Part shown: piece after piece, positions 10,988 to 43,454 of the stretch
Layout of the letters: every line of letters starts with the position of its first letter
Position numbering within the stretch: the first letter of the stretch is position 1
Source: Pseudomonadota bacterium
Lineage (GTDB): Bacteria; Pseudomonadota; Gammaproteobacteria; CALCKW01
Length of the DNA: 49,013 nucleotides
Assembly (NCBI GenBank): GCA_039196715.1
Contig: JBCCUP010000031.1
Location: 1-49,013 of the forward strand
Direction of reading: 5' to 3'
Notes under the pieces: generated by a model
Databases searched by the model: none
Told to the model about the DNA's origin: nothing
Seen by the model: the letters and a program-made list of their open reading frames with translations, nothing else
Program-made: the position numbers and the translations under genes

Positions 10988-12262
10988 CTAGGCGCTTGCG
11001 GGCGTGCGGTCGTCGGCGCGGGCACGCGTTGGCAGGTCGCCGGCCAGCCCCATCGCGTAGCGGCACGCGAGGTGGCGCGCCGGGTGCACCCGGGCGCCCG
11101 AGCTCAGCAACAGCCGACGGGCCAGCACCACACCGGGTGCACGGCTCTCGAAGCCACGCTGAAAGCCGTGCAACACCTCCGACATCAACGTGTTCTCACC
11201 GCGCCGCCAGCGCTGGTAGCGCCGCAACACCCGCTCGGCGCCGATGTCGCGGTGCTGCGCCCGCGCGTCGACGAGCACGTCGACCAGCGCCGCGGCGTCC
11301 ATGAAACCGAGGTTCACGCCCTGACCAGCGAGCGGGTGCACGCTGTGCGCCGCGTCGCCGATGAGCGCGAACCCGGCCTGCACGTAGCGCTCGGCGTGCG
11401 CCCGAGTGAGCGGGAAACTGCTGCGCTCGATGACCGCCTCGACACCGCCCAGCCGCGCCGGAAAGGTGTCGAGCAACACGTCAATGAAGTCCGCCTCGTC
11501 CAGCGCCCGCAACTCGGCCACGCGCGCCGGGCTGTGGTACCACACCAGGGATGCGCGGTTGCCGGTCAGCGGCAGCATGGCCTCGGGACCGCTCGGCTGA
11601 AAGCGCTGCCAGGTGATGTCCTGTTGGCCCAGCGTGGTCGCCACGGTGGCGACCAGCGCGTGCTGATCGTAGGTCGCGCCGGGCGCGTCGATGCCCGCGA
11701 GCCCGCGCAGCGTCGATCGGGCCCCGTCCGCCGCCACCAGCACCCGGGTGCGCACGCGCGTGCCGTCGTCGAGCGTGACGTGCGTGTAAGACCCGTCGCG
11801 GTCGAAGCGCGCGACCGCTGCCGGGCACAGCAAGACCCCGCCCGCGCGGTCGTAGGCCGCCAGTGCCGCCTCTTGAATCAGGTTGTTTTCAACGATGTGG
11901 CCGAGGTGGGGCTCGGCGACTTCGGCCGCGTCGAACACGGTCTCTGCGCCGTCGTCGTCTTCCCAGACCGCCATGCGCCGAAACGGCGCCGCGCGGTGGG
12001 TTGCGATGTGGTCCCAGGCGCCGATATGCCGCAGCACCCGCTCGCTCGCGCGGTTCAGCGCACTGACGCGGATACCGGGCGGCACGGTGAGGTCCATGGG
12101 CACGGGCGGTGTGCGCTCGACCAGCACGCAGGAGAACCCCGCCTGCAACAGCGCGGTGGCGCAGGTCGCGCCGACCATGCCGGCGCCGACGACCACCACG
12201 TCGGTGTCGTGCTCGAACGGAGACGGCTGCGAGGTCACGGGCGGTGGGCTCTGTGGCGACAC
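10988..12262 (-). CDS. UbiH/UbiF-family FAD-dependent ubiquinone-biosynthesis hydroxylase
   Basis: A class A flavoprotein monooxygenase of the UbiH/UbiF/UbiI/Coq6 family, which hydroxylates the aromatic ring during ubiquinone synthesis. Seen: the GxGxxG dinucleotide motif (VVVVGAGMVGATCA) near the N-terminus, the DG motif (LVAADGARSTLRGLAG), and the family C-terminal signature GDAAHSVHPLAGQGVNLG. About 424 residues from a GTG at 12262. The C-terminal extension after the FAD domain is Arg/Ala-rich. It starts 13 bp after the two-domain protease stop and is probably cotranscribed with it. Which ring position it hydroxylates cannot be told; ubiF or ubiH are both possible. The upstream frame to 12370 is read-through of the protease end. 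Confidence 0.85.
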   Translation of the reverse strand: MSPQSPPPVTSQPSPFEHDTDVVVVGAGMVGATCATALLQAGFSCVLVERTPPVPMDLTVPPGIRVSALNRASERVLRHIGAWDHIATHRAAPFRRMAVWEDDDGAETVFDAAEVAEPHLGHIVENNLIQEAALAAYDRAGGVLLCPAAVARFDRDGSYTHVTLDDGTRVRTRVLVAADGARSTLRGLAGIDAPGATYDQHALVATVATTLGQQDITWQRFQPSGPEAMLPLTGNRASLVWYHSPARVAELRALDEADFIDVLLDTFPARLGGVEAVIERSSFPLTRAHAERYVQAGFALIGDAAHSVHPLAGQGVNLGFMDAAALVDVLVDARAQHRDIGAERVLRRYQRWRRGENTLMSEVLHGFQRGFESRAPGVVLARRLLLSSGARVHPARHLACRYAMGLAGDLPTRARADDRTPASA

Positions 12263-12275
12263 GGAAACGATCAGT

Positions 12276-15074
12276 CTACCAGCTGTGCCGACGCCACCGA
12301 CCGGTGTCGTCACGCTGCAGTTCGTAGCGCGGCCAGAACCCCGGGTCGCTGACCATGGCGACCAGGCCACGCCGGCCGTTCAGGCCACGGAAGGAGAAAC
12401 GCACCGTGTCGCCCGCCTCGACGTCCGCCAGAATCGCCTTGAAGTCGGCCAATGTGTGGATCGGCTGGTTGTTGATCGCGGTGATGAAGCGGTTGCGGTA
12501 CAGGCCCTCCGCGAGCGGCGGCGATCCGCTCTCGACGTGACTGACATAGACGCCATCGGCGCGACCGACCGTGCGCGCACGCACTTCGCGCGAAGGGTTC
12601 TGCACCGAGAGTCCGTTCCAGCTCACCCGGTGCGTGGCCCCGGTGCCGTCGAGCGGTGTGGGCGTGTACGTCAGCGTCATTTCGACACCGGCCCGCACCA
12701 CGCGCAGATCCACGCGCTCGCGCTGGCTGGCGCGCTCGAGCGCGCGCAAGGTGTTAACCGCCCGCCCGTCAACCGACAACAGCACATCGCCCACCTGCAG
12801 CGGTGAGGGTGTGTCGCCGTTGTAGACCTGGCGCACGTACAGGGCGCGCGGGAAGCGCGGATTCAGCCGTGCGAGGTCGCCGAGCTGGGCGTCGCTCAGG
12901 CCGAGTTCGCGGGCGTCACTGAGCGGCAGGTAGCGCCAGTCGACGTCAATCGCGTAGTAGGGGTCACCGTTGCGGTAGTTCTCGAGGGTCTCCAGCACCA
13001 GGTCCGCGGGAAAGCCCCACTCGCCCTCGGCCACCTCACGGCCCTCCTGAAAGGCAAAGCTGGTCCAGAAGGCGTGCACCACGGCGTCCGGCGTGACCAG
13101 CACGCCACCGAGGCTCGGCGGCGGGTTTTGCAAGTCGTAGCCGTCGAACACGGTCTGGGTGAAACGCGGCAGGCTCGAGCGGTTGAAGACCAGCGTGCGC
13201 TCGGTCGGCGTGCCGACACCGCGCGAGATGACCTCGCCGCCGAGGCCGAAACCGATGAACTGCGACGCCGCCCCGTTGATTGCAGGCTCGGCACTGAGCT
13301 GCGGTGCGGCCAGGCGGTCCATCGGCAGGCGCGCCGGGTCGACCCGCAGCAAGGCCACATTGTGCACCGGGTGCAGGTAGACGACCTCGGCCGGCACGCG
13401 GATGCTGCCGAAGACCGTGACCCAGGCCTCGCCGAGCGAGACCGTGACGGTGTTACGGTCAATCAGCACCAGGCCTTCCTCTGGCGACACGATCAGCCCG
13501 GTGCCGCGGAAGTTGCTGGCGTAGGCATTGGAGATCAGGTGCGGTGAATCGAAGTCCACCCGCACGAGCAGGTTGCCGAACTGCGCCAGCAACGGGTCGT
13601 CGAAGGGCACCGGGTCTGCGTTCCCCACCACGTCGACCGCGTCGCCCTTGGACGCCGGGATCGGCTGGCAGGCCCAGTCGCGCTCGCCGTCCCGACGCTC
13701 GCACACCGACTCACGGTGCCACTCGCGGTCGACGGTGACCGTGGTCAGCTCGCTGGTGTACTCGCGCCGCGGCACGACAAACCGCACGATCCAGCGTTCG
13801 CCGTCGCGCGCTGCGCCGAGCATCGGGATGAGGTCGTCGACGGTGGCGATCGGCTTCTCGTTGACGTGGGTGATCACCGCGCCCACCGGCATGTTCGAGC
13901 GCTGGAACATGAAGCGCGTGGCCACCAGCGCCACGCCGCGGCGCGGCAGGTTCATCGTCCGCGCCTGGTGCAGGGTCATGTCATGCAGCACCGCACCGCC
14001 GAATTCCACGAGCCGGTCCGGGATTGCGGCGTGCAGATCTGCGACGGCGATGCGCGATTCGATGCGTTCACCCTGGCGGTAGACCGTCACCGACACCTGT
14101 TCGCCGACGGTGTCGTCAAGGGCCTGGTCGAGGCTCGCAAACCGGTAGATCGGTTGCCCGGCGATCTCGACCAGCACGTCTCCGGCGACCAGCGCCCCGT
14201 CGGCGACGCCGTCGGGGAAGACCTGCTCGACCACCAACATGCCGGTGTTGTCATCGCTGGCCTCGCGCGCGCGCGCTGCCTCGGCGGTGGGCACGCCGAG
14301 GCGCGCCACGGTGCGGAAGGCCTCGTGCCGAAACACCGTCTGCAGCCCGCCGCGGGGCACGTCGAGGTCGGCCTGAAGTCGGTTGAGCGCCTCGCGGATC
14401 CGCCACAGCGGCAGAAAGAAACTGCTCGCGGTGTTCGAATTGGCGCCCGCGTTCAAGGCCACCACGTTGCCGTCGATGTCGACCACCGGCGAGCCGCTCG
14501 AGCCACCCGAGGTGCCGGACGCCGCCTGGTAGTAGAAGGTGTTGAAGTCGCTGAAACCGTACCGGCCGTAGCGCGGCGCCGCCCGATCGAGCCGTGCGAT
14601 GGTGCCGGCGAGGATCGAGAGCTGCTCACCGCCGTCGGAACCGATCACGCGGATGTCCAGGCCCCGGCGGGCCCCCTCGGGCCGCAACGCAAGGCTGCGG
14701 GGCGTGTTGTACTGCAAGGCCGCCGGATCGTAACGAAAGAAGCCGTAGTCGTGCACCGGGTCGCGGTAGAGCGGCACCAGTTCGACTTCCTCCATGTTCT
14801 GGAAGGTCGCAAAGGCGCGCACCGGACCCGCGCCGATCACGTGGCGGTTGGTCAACAGGATGCCGCGCTCGGCGTCGACGACGAACCCGGTCGCCGAGGT
14901 GCCGCCCTGGGCGTCATCGTCGAAGGCGCGTTGCCGAGAGAGCGAGATCGAGACGACAGAATCCGCAACCTGGCTCACGGTGTCGGACCAACGCGCGGCG
15001 CTGTCGGCACGCGTTGCGTGCGGAAACGCGAGTACACACAGACACAACAGGGGGACAAAGCTCAAACGGCGCAC
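12276..15074 (-). CDS. Two-domain trypsin-like (Deg7/Nma111-type) periplasmic protease
   Basis: A 932-residue secreted protein built like eukaryotic Nma111/Deg7: one active HtrA-type protease domain, PDZ domains, a second degenerate protease-like domain and more PDZ. The start is a GTG at 15074 after an AGGAG box; residues 1-23 are a signal peptide ending ATRA. The first domain has the triad His78 (TNRHVIG), Asp109 (PVHDYGFF) and Ser193 (GGSSGSP). PDZ-like stretches follow at about 270-360 and 370-470 (GMLVVEQVFPDGVADGA). The second protease-like domain (about 510-700) keeps the fold, but its His, Asp and Ser positions read IDRNTV, HPVHNVALL and PSLGGVL, so it is inactive. Two further PDZ-like repeats close the protein (LQVGDVLLSVDGRAV; RFITAINNQPIHTL). 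Likely role: protein quality control or a regulatory cleavage in the periplasm; substrate unknown. Confidence 0.85.
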   Translation of the reverse strand: MRRLSFVPLLCLCVLAFPHATRADSAARWSDTVSQVADSVVSISLSRQRAFDDDAQGGTSATGFVVDAERGILLTNRHVIGAGPVRAFATFQNMEEVELVPLYRDPVHDYGFFRYDPAALQYNTPRSLALRPEGARRGLDIRVIGSDGGEQLSILAGTIARLDRAAPRYGRYGFSDFNTFYYQAASGTSGGSSGSPVVDIDGNVVALNAGANSNTASSFFLPLWRIREALNRLQADLDVPRGGLQTVFRHEAFRTVARLGVPTAEAARAREASDDNTGMLVVEQVFPDGVADGALVAGDVLVEIAGQPIYRFASLDQALDDTVGEQVSVTVYRQGERIESRIAVADLHAAIPDRLVEFGGAVLHDMTLHQARTMNLPRRGVALVATRFMFQRSNMPVGAVITHVNEKPIATVDDLIPMLGAARDGERWIVRFVVPRREYTSELTTVTVDREWHRESVCERRDGERDWACQPIPASKGDAVDVVGNADPVPFDDPLLAQFGNLLVRVDFDSPHLISNAYASNFRGTGLIVSPEEGLVLIDRNTVTVSLGEAWVTVFGSIRVPAEVVYLHPVHNVALLRVDPARLPMDRLAAPQLSAEPAINGAASQFIGFGLGGEVISRGVGTPTERTLVFNRSSLPRFTQTVFDGYDLQNPPPSLGGVLVTPDAVVHAFWTSFAFQEGREVAEGEWGFPADLVLETLENYRNGDPYYAIDVDWRYLPLSDARELGLSDAQLGDLARLNPRFPRALYVRQVYNGDTPSPLQVGDVLLSVDGRAVNTLRALERASQRERVDLRVVRAGVEMTLTYTPTPLDGTGATHRVSWNGLSVQNPSREVRARTVGRADGVYVSHVESGSPPLAEGLYRNRFITAINNQPIHTLADFKAILADVEAGDTVRFSFRGLNGRRGLVAMVSDPGFWPRYELQRDDTGRWRRHSW

Positions 15075-15206
15075 GCGGCGGCTCCTGGTTGGTGGCCACA
15101 CCACGGCAATCGCCGTCAGCTGCAGCCCGGTTATACTGTTCGATCGGCAGGGTGCTGGTACAGCGCATGCAATTCCCGTACTGCCACTGAAACTGGACGC
15201 CACACC

Positions 15207-16517
15207 GTGCCGCCTGACGCCACAGACGCCGCCAACCTCAACTGGTTCCGTGAAGCCGCCCCCTACCTTCAGGCGCTGCGCGGGGCGACGTTCGTGCTGG
15301 CCTGGACGCCGGGCGACAGCGACGAGGCCAACCGCGCACTGCTCGGCGACTGTACCCGACTCGCTTCGCTCGGCGCACGCATCGTGCTCGTGCACGGTAT
15401 CCGTGACCCACTCGACCGCGCACTGGCGGCCACCAACAGTCCATCGCACTTCCACAAGGGCATCCGCATCACGCCCGCGCACGACATGCCCTGTGTCCAG
15501 TCGGTGGCCGGCAGCGAGCGCTTGAGCATTGAGGCCCGCTTGTCAGCCAGCGCCCTGGCGTCGCCGTTCGACGGCAAACGCGTGCAGGTCGCAACCTGCA
15601 ACGCCGTCACCGCACGACCCTACGGCATCCACGACGGCGTCGACCACGGATGCACCGGCGTCGTGCGACGTGTCGACACCACGCACCTGCGCGCGCAGCT
15701 CGACGGTGGCGCACTGGTGCTGCAATCACCGGTCGGCTGGGCGCCGAGCGGCGAGCTCTACAACCTGCGCCATGAGGAGCTTGCCACCGAGATTGCGATC
15801 GCGCTGCGCGCCGACAAATTGATCTTCCTCGCGCGCCACAGCGTGGTGCAACCGGTGCTCGATGCCGGCCAGCGCGACCTGACACCGGCCACTGCCGACC
15901 GCTGGTGCGAGGGCCACGGCGACGCGGCCAGCGCGCTCGCGTTGCGCAGCGCCGCCACCGCGTGCCGGCGCGGGGTCACGCGTGCCTACCTGCTGGACGC
16001 CGACCGCGACGGTGCGTTGCCGACCGAGCTGCTCACCCGCGACGGCGCCGGTGCGATGGTCTCGGCTGACAACTACGAAGGCTTGCGCGCCGCCGCGGCG
16101 GACGACGTGGCGGGCCTGGTGGCCTTGACGGCACCGCTGGTGTCGGACGGCAGCCTGGTGGCACGGGCGGTTGAACAGTTCGAGCTGGATATCGGTCACT
16201 TTGCAGTGGTCGAGCGCGACGGTTTGCTGGTGGCCTGTGCCGCGCTGCTGCCGCACGCCTGCGGACTCGGCGAGTTCTGCTGCCTGGCCACGCACCCCGA
16301 CTACCGCAACGGCGGCCGGGCCGCGAAGCTGCTGACCTATTGCGAGACCGCGGCCCGCAACCGGGGGTTGAACGCGTTGTTCGTGTTGACCACGCAGACG
16401 GCGGACTGGTTTCTGGAGCGCGGTTTCCAGCCGGGCGAAACCGACCAGCTGCCCCCGACCGTGCAGGCCCGCTACAGCCCGAGTCGCAACAGCAAGGTGC
16501 TGATCAAGACGCTCTGA
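15207..16517 (+). CDS. argA: Amino-acid N-acetyltransferase (N-acetylglutamate synthase)
   Basis: Acetylates glutamate with acetyl-CoA, the first step of arginine synthesis. The 436-residue protein has the classical ArgA layout: an amino-acid-kinase-like domain (about 1-285; FVLAWTPGDSDEANR, SHFHKGIRITPAHDM) that binds arginine as feedback inhibitor in relatives, then a GNAT domain (about 290-436; CLATHPDYRNGGRAAKLL, FVLTTQTADWFLERGF). It aligns with E. coli ArgA (443 residues) end to end, including the closing SRNSKVLIK. A GTG at 15207 is chosen; the frame extends far upstream only as antisense to the protease gene. It is divergent from the protease gene (132 bp) and converges on the LON gene with 7 bp between stops. 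Confidence 0.94.
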   Translation: MPPDATDAANLNWFREAAPYLQALRGATFVLAWTPGDSDEANRALLGDCTRLASLGARIVLVHGIRDPLDRALAATNSPSHFHKGIRITPAHDMPCVQSVAGSERLSIEARLSASALASPFDGKRVQVATCNAVTARPYGIHDGVDHGCTGVVRRVDTTHLRAQLDGGALVLQSPVGWAPSGELYNLRHEELATEIAIALRADKLIFLARHSVVQPVLDAGQRDLTPATADRWCEGHGDAASALALRSAATACRRGVTRAYLLDADRDGALPTELLTRDGAGAMVSADNYEGLRAAAADDVAGLVALTAPLVSDGSLVARAVEQFELDIGHFAVVERDGLLVACAALLPHACGLGEFCCLATHPDYRNGGRAAKLLTYCETAARNRGLNALFVLTTQTADWFLERGFQPGETDQLPPTVQARYSPSRNSKVLIKTL

Positions 16518-40174: not shown

Positions 40175-43167
40175 CAGCTTTTCACCCGTTCACCGGCAGG
40201 GTCGACGAAGACCGGATCGACCACCTTGGCGCGCACGGCGCGGCCGTCGATCAGCGCGAGGTCGACCGTGCTCCCCTTGCGGTTGAACCCGTCTGCGATC
40301 ACGGCCATCGCGATCGAGCGCCCGCCGTCGACGTTCGGGCTGTAGTAGCTCGACGTCACGTGGCCCAGCATCGGCATGGGCGGCGCGGCGCGCACCTCGG
40401 AGACGATGTGAGCGCCCTCTGGCAACACCAGTTCCGGGTCTTCGGTCAGCAGGCCGACCAACTGTTTGCGCCCTTGGCGTGCGGTGTCGCTGCGGCTGAG
40501 TGAGCGCTTGCCGAGAAAGTCCGCCTTCTTCTTGCTGACGATCCAGTCCATGCCGAGGTCCGCCGGCGTCATGGTGCCGTCCGAATCCTGGCCGACAATG
40601 ATGAAACCCTTCTCCGCGCGCAACACGTGCATGGTCTCGGTGCCGTACATTACGAGTTCCATGTCCGCCCCGGCTGCCACCAGGGCTTCCCAGACATGCC
40701 GACCGTAGCGCGCCGGTACGTTGACCTCGAAGGACTGTTCGCCGGTGAAGCTGATGCGGAACACCCGAGCCGGCACACCGGCCAGGGTGACGGCCTTGTA
40801 GGACATGAACGGCAGCGCCTCATTGCTGACGTCGTCGTCCGTGAGTTTCTGCAGCAGTTCGCGGGACCGCGGGCCGTTCAGGGCCATCACCGCCCACTGC
40901 TCTGTAACGCTGGTGGCGTAGACACGCTTGTCGGGCCACTCGGTCTGCAGCCATTCCTCAATCCAACCCATGACCCGCGCAGCGCCGCCGGTTGTGGTGG
41001 TCATGTGGTAGTGGTGTTCACCGAGTCGCGTGGTGACACCGTCGTCGAACACCATACCGTGCTCGTTGAGCATGAGTCCGTACCGGCACTTGCCCACTGC
41101 GAGACCCTGCCACGCGTTGGTGTACAGCATCTCGAGCAGCCAGGCGGTGTCCGGCCCCTGCAGGTCGATCTTGCCGAGCGTGGAGGCGTCGAAGAGTCCC
41201 ACGCCGTCGCGCACGGCTTTGCACTCGCGCCGCACAGCCGCGTCCATGTCCTCGCCGCCGCGCGGGTAGTAGCGCGCCCGCTTCCAGTCGCCGACGTCCT
41301 CGAACACCGCGCCATGCGCCTCGGACCAGGCGTGCATGGGCGTCTTGCGCACCATGTGGAAGAGGTGACGTCGGTTCTGCCCGACCACGGCGCCGAAGGT
41401 CAGCGGCGTGTAGGGTGGCCTGAAGGTGGTCACGCCGATCGAGGGAACGGGCACACCGCGCGACTCGGCCACGATACCGATCGCATTGACGTTCGAGGTC
41501 TTGCCCTGGTCGGTGGCCATCCCCGTGGTGGTGTAGCGCTTGGTGTGTTCGATGGACTCGAAGCCCTCGCGCTGGGCGAGCAGCAGGTCGGCGGCCGTGG
41601 CGTCGTTCTGAAACTCGTGGAAGTGCTTTTTCGGCCCCTCGCCAAGCGGGTGGTCGGTTGGCACCACCCAGAGCGGGCGCAGTGCCGCACCGACCGGCGC
41701 CGCCTCGGCCCGCGGGCCGTCGCCCTCGCCACCACCGGCCGCCCAGCCCTCCTCAAGGCAGTGCGACAAGGTCAGGCTGCCGTTGCACGCGCCCACCGAC
41801 GCGTGCGCCATGGTGGGGGCGGTTGCGGCGGGTGCGAAGGTCTGGGTGTCCTCGCACCACCGCAGTTTTCCCTTAGCCTGACTGTGCAGGTGCACCGCCG
41901 GGTTCCAGCCGCCACTCGAACAGACCAGGTCGCAGTCGATGCGCCGCACGGACCCCGACACGGTGCGCCCGTCGGCACTCAGGCTCATCACGTCGACGCC
42001 CTGGATGCCGCCGCTGTAGCGCACGGCCGTCACGGCGCTGCCGAACACCAACTCGACACCGGCGCTGCGGGCGCGCTCCGTGACCGCGTCACCGGCGCTT
42101 GTACGGCAATCCACCAGCGTCACCGGGCGGCCGGCACCCACCGCGTCTATCGCAGTCGCATAGGCGCTGTCGTTGTTGGTGAACACGACCACGGCGTGGC
42201 CGGGCAACACCCCGTAGCGGTGCTGGTAGGTCCGCACGGCCGACGCTAGCATGACCCCAGGACGGTCGTTGTCGGCAAACACCAGCGGGCGCTCGATGGC
42301 GCCGGTGGCGAGCACCACCTGTTTTGCCCGCAGTTTCCACAGGCGCTGACGTGGCACGGCGTCGCTGCGTTGCGGACCGAGATGCGCTGTCACGTGCTCG
42401 GTGGCAATCAGGTAGTTGTAATCGAAGTAGCCCGTCAGCGTGGTGCGCGTCAACACACGCACGGTGTCCGCCGCCGCGAGCTCGGCCGCCACGTCGGCCA
42501 CCCAGTCCACGGCCGCCTTGCCGTCGATCTCGGCCGTGTCGCCGAGCAGGGCACCGCCGAGTTCGGCCGACTCGTCGACCAGCACCACCCGTTTGCCCGC
42601 GCGAGACGCGGCCAGCGCACAGGCGAGGCCCGCCGGCCCGCCGCCGACGATCAGCAGATCGGGCTGGTCGTAGCGGTGCTCGTAGCGGTCCGGATCCGGC
42701 TCTTTCGGCGCAACACCAAGGCCCGCGGCCCGCCGGATGACGTGCTCGTAGGTCGTCCACATGCGCTCGGGCCACATGAAGGTCTTGTAGTAGAAGCCCG
42801 CCGGAAAGAACCGCGACAACCAGCTGTTGACCACGCCGATGTCGTACTTGAGGCTGGGCCACCGGTTCTGGCTGTCGGCCTGCAGGCCGTCGTAGAGCTC
42901 GACACTGGTGGCACGTGTGTTCGGCTCGGTGTAGGCACCACGTTCAAGCTGCACCAGGGCGTTTGGCTCCTCGACGCCGGCGGCGAGGATGCCGCGTGGC
43001 CGGTGGTACTTGAAGCTCCGGCCGACCAGCGTCACGCCGTTGGCCAACAGCGCCGAGGCGAGTGTGTCGCCGGCGTACCCCGAGTAGCTCTGGCCGTCGA
43101 ACTCGAATCGCACCGGCTGGCCGCGGTCGATGCGGCCACCCGTTGGCAGTCGGTAGTTCGCGCTCAT
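40174..43167 (-). CDS. soxA: Sarcosine oxidase alpha subunit
   Basis: The 997-residue alpha subunit binds NAD and tetrahydrofolate in the heterotetramer that oxidises sarcosine to glycine with formation of 5,10-methylene-THF and H2O2. Seen in order: an N-terminal domain (YSGYAGDTLASALLANGV), a pyridine-nucleotide dinucleotide fold (LLIVGGGPAGLACALAASRAG), and a C-terminal half of the aminomethyltransferase (GcvT) type with WAVMALNGPRSRELLQ and LRAEKGFIIVGQDSDGT. Length matches the family (about 960-1000). It overlaps soxD by 4 bp at its start and soxG by one base at its end. Confidence 0.96.
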   Translation of the reverse strand: MSANYRLPTGGRIDRGQPVRFEFDGQSYSGYAGDTLASALLANGVTLVGRSFKYHRPRGILAAGVEEPNALVQLERGAYTEPNTRATSVELYDGLQADSQNRWPSLKYDIGVVNSWLSRFFPAGFYYKTFMWPERMWTTYEHVIRRAAGLGVAPKEPDPDRYEHRYDQPDLLIVGGGPAGLACALAASRAGKRVVLVDESAELGGALLGDTAEIDGKAAVDWVADVAAELAAADTVRVLTRTTLTGYFDYNYLIATEHVTAHLGPQRSDAVPRQRLWKLRAKQVVLATGAIERPLVFADNDRPGVMLASAVRTYQHRYGVLPGHAVVVFTNNDSAYATAIDAVGAGRPVTLVDCRTSAGDAVTERARSAGVELVFGSAVTAVRYSGGIQGVDVMSLSADGRTVSGSVRRIDCDLVCSSGGWNPAVHLHSQAKGKLRWCEDTQTFAPAATAPTMAHASVGACNGSLTLSHCLEEGWAAGGGEGDGPRAEAAPVGAALRPLWVVPTDHPLGEGPKKHFHEFQNDATAADLLLAQREGFESIEHTKRYTTTGMATDQGKTSNVNAIGIVAESRGVPVPSIGVTTFRPPYTPLTFGAVVGQNRRHLFHMVRKTPMHAWSEAHGAVFEDVGDWKRARYYPRGGEDMDAAVRRECKAVRDGVGLFDASTLGKIDLQGPDTAWLLEMLYTNAWQGLAVGKCRYGLMLNEHGMVFDDGVTTRLGEHHYHMTTTTGGAARVMGWIEEWLQTEWPDKRVYATSVTEQWAVMALNGPRSRELLQKLTDDDVSNEALPFMSYKAVTLAGVPARVFRISFTGEQSFEVNVPARYGRHVWEALVAAGADMELVMYGTETMHVLRAEKGFIIVGQDSDGTMTPADLGMDWIVSKKKADFLGKRSLSRSDTARQGRKQLVGLLTEDPELVLPEGAHIVSEVRAAPPMPMLGHVTSSYYSPNVDGGRSIAMAVIADGFNRKGSTVDLALIDGRAVRAKVVDPVFVDPAGERVKS

Positions 43168-43454
43168 GCGCCCTCCAACTCAAAAGCCGGAATCTCTTCA
43201 CCCGGCTTGTAGAAACCCAAAAACTCGTCAGTGGCCGTGTTTCGAACTGCAATGAACCAGCGACCACAACCGTGGTCGTGGGACCAACGCTCGTAGTGGA
43301 TACCCTTCACGTTCTTGCGAAAAAACACGTAGTCGCCCCATTCCTCGTCGGTCATGTCGAGTGCATTCGCAGGCCGGGCTATGAACGCTTCGCCGTGGCA
43401 ATGGAATTCCGTTTGGTCGCGCTCGCCGCACCAAGGGCAAGTGATCAACAGCAT
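43164..43454 (-). CDS. soxD: Sarcosine oxidase delta subunit
   Basis: A 96-residue zinc-binding subunit of heterotetrameric sarcosine oxidase. The four zinc ligands known from the family are in place: Cys6 and Cys9 (CPWC) and His59 and Cys63 (SHDHGCGRWF). It overlaps soxA by 4 bp and lies 12 bp after soxB. Confidence 0.95.
   Translation of the reverse strand: MLLITCPWCGERDQTEFHCHGEAFIARPANALDMTDEEWGDYVFFRKNVKGIHYERWSHDHGCGRWFIAVRNTATDEFLGFYKPGEEIPAFELEGA

Follow-up and report, generated by a model that had tools for sequence, protein, structure and literature searches.

The gene at positions 12276 to 15074 on the minus strand of the window, the 49,013-nucleotide stretch of gammaproteobacterial DNA analyzed here, almost certainly encodes a bacterial Deg/HtrA serine protease of the Nma111/Deg7 clade. 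The reading that we favor, with a probability of roughly 0.75, is that its product is a periplasmic quality-control protease of this clade built from a duplicated unit, the catalytically dead half of which would serve as a scaffold. In the open-licence literature, the descriptions of such double proteases that we found concern plants and fungi (earlier bacterial accounts may exist), and a 2019 survey (PMC6411480) assigned PDZ_1 domains to a small number of fungi and archaea. The bacterial double protease represents a little-described branch of an established kind rather than a new one. Being widespread, this branch would offer tractable systems in which to study the function of a conserved dead domain, as well as bacterial sequences for comparison when tracing where eukaryotic Nma111/Deg7 came from.

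Domain architecture and the intact triad of the first domain

The open reading frame is a real gene, with a GTG start, an AGGAG motif 7 nt upstream, and 932 codons. It is the single copy of a full-length double protease in its own genome, and close relatives of its product, 57–76% identical to it, are encoded in three other genomes of that genus. A scan for promoters and terminators around the gene returned no informative site. The gene and the parts of its product are as follows.

12276–15074 (−): double HtrA-type protease gene; 932 aa, GTG start, stop codon at 12278–12276
15082–15086 (−): AGGAG, ribosome-binding-like site judged from the sequence, 7 nt 5' of the GTG at 15074
15006–15074 (−): Sec-type signal peptide, residues 1–23 (ATRA/DS), predicted from the sequence and a hydropathy survey of relatives
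14370–14990 (−): protease domain 1, residues 29–235, triad H78/D109/S193
14040–14339 (−): PDZ domain, residues 246–345
13731–14027 (−): PDZ_1 (PF12812) domain, residues 350–448
13662–13730 (−): tail element 1, residues 449–471, with invariant W452, C458, W467, and C469
12966–13607 (−): protease domain 2, residues 490–703, trypsin fold without the triad
12663–12959 (−): PDZ domain, residues 706–804
12351–12647 (−): second PDZ_1 (PF12812) domain, residues 810–908
12282–12350 (−): tail element 2, residues 909–931, a repeat of tail element 1 without the cysteines

Pfam searches matched Trypsin_2 (90 bits), PDZ_1 (PF12812; 78 bits, in two stretches), and PDZ_2/PDZ_6 (in four stretches) to the window protein, which carries four PDZ domains in two tandems, with PDZ_1 domains among them. 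These matches and an AlphaFold2 model of the full-length protein (pLDDT 87, pTM 0.82) agree with the layout proposed in a preliminary description of this DNA, namely an active HtrA-type domain, PDZ repeats, a second protease-like domain, and further PDZ domains. The same description had assigned an active-type triad to domain 1, and H78, D109, and S193 (the serine of a GSSG motif) were indeed invariant in 83 of 83 aligned sequences; domain 1 resembles DegP/HtrA in both sequence and fold. Its claim of secretion also found support, as domain 1 is preceded, in the window protein and in 77 of 80 relatives, by a hydrophobic stretch and then a small-x-small site, according to a simple hydropathy heuristic that is not a trained predictor. 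Judged from these signals, the double protease is probably exported to the periplasm. C458 and C469 of tail element 1 occur in all bacterial full-length members examined and could possibly form a disulfide, which would fit an oxidizing compartment.

The conserved dead domain

A profile alignment of the two halves of the protein placed N541 opposite H78 and N572 opposite D109 and left a gap opposite the S193 loop, which is deleted in domain 2, so that the loss of all three catalytic residues reported earlier is borne out. Taken alone, domain 2 of the window protein matched Trypsin_2 weakly (20 bits, E = 0.001), and domain 2 of one relative scored 29.8 bits, which is over the Pfam cut-off. Because the fold comparison of the whole model reached residues 18–446 only, domain 2 was folded and searched by itself. 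The resulting AlphaFold2 model (pLDDT 88.6, pTM 0.88) contains a confident trypsin fold at about residues 494–702, where the preliminary description had advised looking for one by structure prediction (residues ~510–700). Its best solved matches were chains of DegP, DegQ, HtrA, and plant Deg proteins (Z 17.8–19.9; 177–207 residues aligned; rmsd 2.8–5.1), and Foldseek concurred, with E-values down to 1e-8. The preliminary description had staked its claim on the presence of this second fold, and the claim withstood that check.

In domain 2, five residues (D539, R540, T542, P569, and H571) are invariant, and the dN/dS of the domain was about 0.13–0.16 against the two closest relatives, a rough figure with dS near saturation; the comparison with the L042 relative gave no value, as synonymous sites were saturated. 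Because of this low ratio and these invariant residues, we conclude that domain 2 is a conserved dead domain and is not decaying. Two divergent double proteases, encoded at L128:1423-4101 (892 aa) and in L129, keep the triad of domain 1 and have a domain 2 nearly without the DRNTVP and HPxHN motifs.

Duplication, kinship, and distribution

The halves of the window protein (residues about 30–470 and 490–931) aligned over 428 columns in a profile comparison (E = 5e-42), end tails included, and these two ~450-residue halves are the product of an ancient tandem duplication. A tree of the halves was built by maximum likelihood (LG+G4, 441 columns; support given as SH-aLRT/UFBoot); in it, the C-halves formed one clade (99.9/100), the N-halves formed another (91.2/75), and the N-halves, C-halves, and a set of half-length relatives together excluded DegP (94.1/100). 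The half-length relatives (L130:1441-2913, with others in L131, L132, and L133) are frames of 480–563 aa from genomes of 1.3–1.7 Mb and branched with the N-halves (99.9/100). Those of L130–L132, from small alphaproteobacteria-like genomes, have one trypsin domain, a PDZ domain, and the region that follows, as does one unit of the window protein, but unlike that protein have no second half. These relatives are candidates for a form with a single unit or for one that has shed its second half. They may descend from the double form, reduced in this way, or the fast C-halves may, through long-branch effects, mask a branching point older than the duplication.

Plant Deg7, a clade III Deg/HtrA protease, has the domain order PD-PDZ-PDZ-PDia-PDZ-PDZ (PMC3473262), which the window protein shares; together with PF12812 in both halves and the second trypsin fold, this order upholds the resemblance to Nma111/Deg7 that had been noticed from the sequence. 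PDZ_1 is present in fungal HtrA/Omi proteins and missing from the mammalian branch, and Klim et al. 2018 pointed to bacterial proteins that resemble the yeast protein more than its human counterpart (PMC5982838). The window protein carries this domain, as do fungal members of the HtrA-like group of yeast Nma111/Ynm3 (PMC5982838). The eukaryotic relatives work in the nucleus (yeast Nma111/Ynm3) or the chloroplast (its stroma, for plant Deg7) and not in a periplasm, which counts against the favored reading. The bacterial protein differs from plant Deg7 in its export signal and in the conserved cysteine pair of tail element 1.

An unverified yeast Nma111 sequence (999 aa), written out once the bacterial family was known and therefore a lead and not proof, aligned end to end with the window protein (32%) and over its full length with the nearest bacterial members (38–39%), and scored 192 bits against PF12812. 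The yeast protein itself is 997 residues long. No papers giving residue numbers against which to check the 999-residue sequence were found, and its positions, which differed between the N-half and C-half trees, were given no weight. The C458/C469 pair, framed by invariant tryptophans within residues 449–471 (window positions 13662–13730), is missing from this sequence. Among the matches listed by single-sequence or profile search, there was no solved structure of Nma111 or Deg7.

Two other families were considered and set aside. DegP and DegQ have in common with the window protein an HtrA triad in the active domain, PDZ domains, and export, but they have one protease domain where the window protein has two trypsin-fold domains; against the model of this Do family, TIGR02037 (NCBIfam), the window protein scored 126.6 bits, below the cut-off of 416.2. 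The magnetosome proteins MamO and MamE likewise pair an HtrA-type pseudoprotease with an active HtrA protease, but do so on separate chains (PMC4794232), and the NCBIfam MamE model gave the window protein 42.8 bits, far below its cut-off of 800.

A pattern-based scan of genome contigs yielded 142 encoding stretches, and the best 80 of the 142, which were kept, came mainly from Woeseiaceae, Steroidobacteraceae, and other Gammaproteobacteria. PF12812 matches above 40 bits were found in 17 of 274 evenly sampled gammaproteobacterial genomes, every one in an open frame of at least 930 aa. In the phylum of genome G915, 52 of 188 genomes had a match with an E-value no higher than 1e-28, and in about 50 the match covered the full length. 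This phylum was reached through a contig (L080) labelled Myxococcota; bins may be mislabelled, but many independent genomes agree on the occurrence in the group so labelled. Matches at 1e-40 were present in 6 of 398 Pseudomonadota genomes, one of the six being half-length. None of 14 control genomes exceeded the PF12812 cut-off (0/14), and the viral contigs and plasmids searched held no relative of the double protease. The protein is common in two large bacterial groups and is no oddity of one genome. The preliminary remark that such proteins are little described in bacteria stands as regards descriptions but not as a statement of rarity, given the many full-length bacterial copies.

Proposed function, alternatives, and gene neighborhood

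The computed evidence shows that an ancestral unit, made up of a trypsin domain, a PDZ domain, a PDZ_1 domain, and a tail, underwent tandem duplication, and that the first copy kept an intact active site while the second lost it and stayed under purifying selection. In the periplasm, to which the protein would be exported, domain 1 may cleave or hold misfolded proteins, the PDZ domains may bind clients, and the dead domain could be a permanent platform for oligomerization and client binding, after the model of plant Deg7, for which a passage in PMC3473262, citing Schuhmann 2011, reports trimerization via the inactive domain. A protease/chaperone role in the periplasm appears most likely, with support from the fold, the triad, the duplication, the export signal, and the constraint on the dead domain, and by analogy with Deg7 we give the scaffold role of the dead domain an even chance. 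More tentatively, and at somewhat under even odds, the duplication behind the eukaryotic Nma111/Deg7 proteases (death-related in yeast, of the chloroplast in plants) may have arisen in a bacterial periplasmic quality-control protease that persists widely among Gammaproteobacteria and the Myxococcota-labelled group, with eukaryotes receiving the finished double gene.

Instead of acting as a scaffold, the dead half may have gained another activity, such as the binding of a metal or ligand as in MamO; this is the chief alternative. That bacterial HtrA fold is a precedent for repurposing (PMC4794232), and the five invariant residues of domain 2 form a motif of its own under purifying selection; residues near ancestral active-site positions may be merely structural, however, and the motif is mostly lost in the divergent L128 and L129 proteins, and we regard a new activity as unlikely, though well ahead of the other rivals. 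Far less probable is that two DegP-type proteases fused independently in bacteria and gave a protein with only an outward likeness to Nma111/Deg7. The DegP/HtrA-like character of domain 1 and the abundance of DegP-like genes in the same genome speak for such an event, but the halves group with each other and leave DegP outside, both of them contain PDZ_1 and the tail element, DegP-type frames score weakly against PF12812, and the unverified yeast sequence aligns from end to end, through the second domain and the tail.

Only marginally more credible than a fusion is a dedicated processing protease for the pathway of a neighboring gene (ubiquinone or FAD-enzyme biogenesis). The genes that flank the protease gene are as follows.

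10988–12262 (−): UbiH-like FAD-binding monooxygenase, downstream; possible start 13 nt past the protease stop
15150–16514 (+): ArgA-like gene (AA_kinase + GNAT), upstream and divergent; start approximate

The UbiH-like gene is tightly spaced here and closely linked in the same genus, which speaks for a pathway protease and agrees with the preliminary description, which had placed the gene in an apparent operon with a ubiquinone hydroxylase. A survey of neighbors in other genomes, which that description had recommended, found this linkage, with the divergent ArgA-like gene on the other side, in 4 of 100 loci, all within the one genus, and the operon thus holds locally but not in general. In other lineages, 39 of 86 loci have gcvPB within 1 kb upstream of the protease gene, and at others a gene for a PfkB kinase or an M23 peptidase adjoins it; none of the tested neighbors occurs at the loci sampled from the Myxococcota-labelled group. 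Because the neighbors vary by lineage and the UbiH link is confined to one genus, the operon is no guide to function, and we rejected a conserved neighborhood as a functional clue. Among loci L041–L120, many gammaproteobacterial ones have glycine-cleavage genes (gcvT ... gcvPB) just upstream, some with a DgkA-like gene. In the window itself, a large open reading frame at 40177–43179 (−) resembles a sarcosine-oxidase alpha subunit and is similar to the GcvT of other loci.
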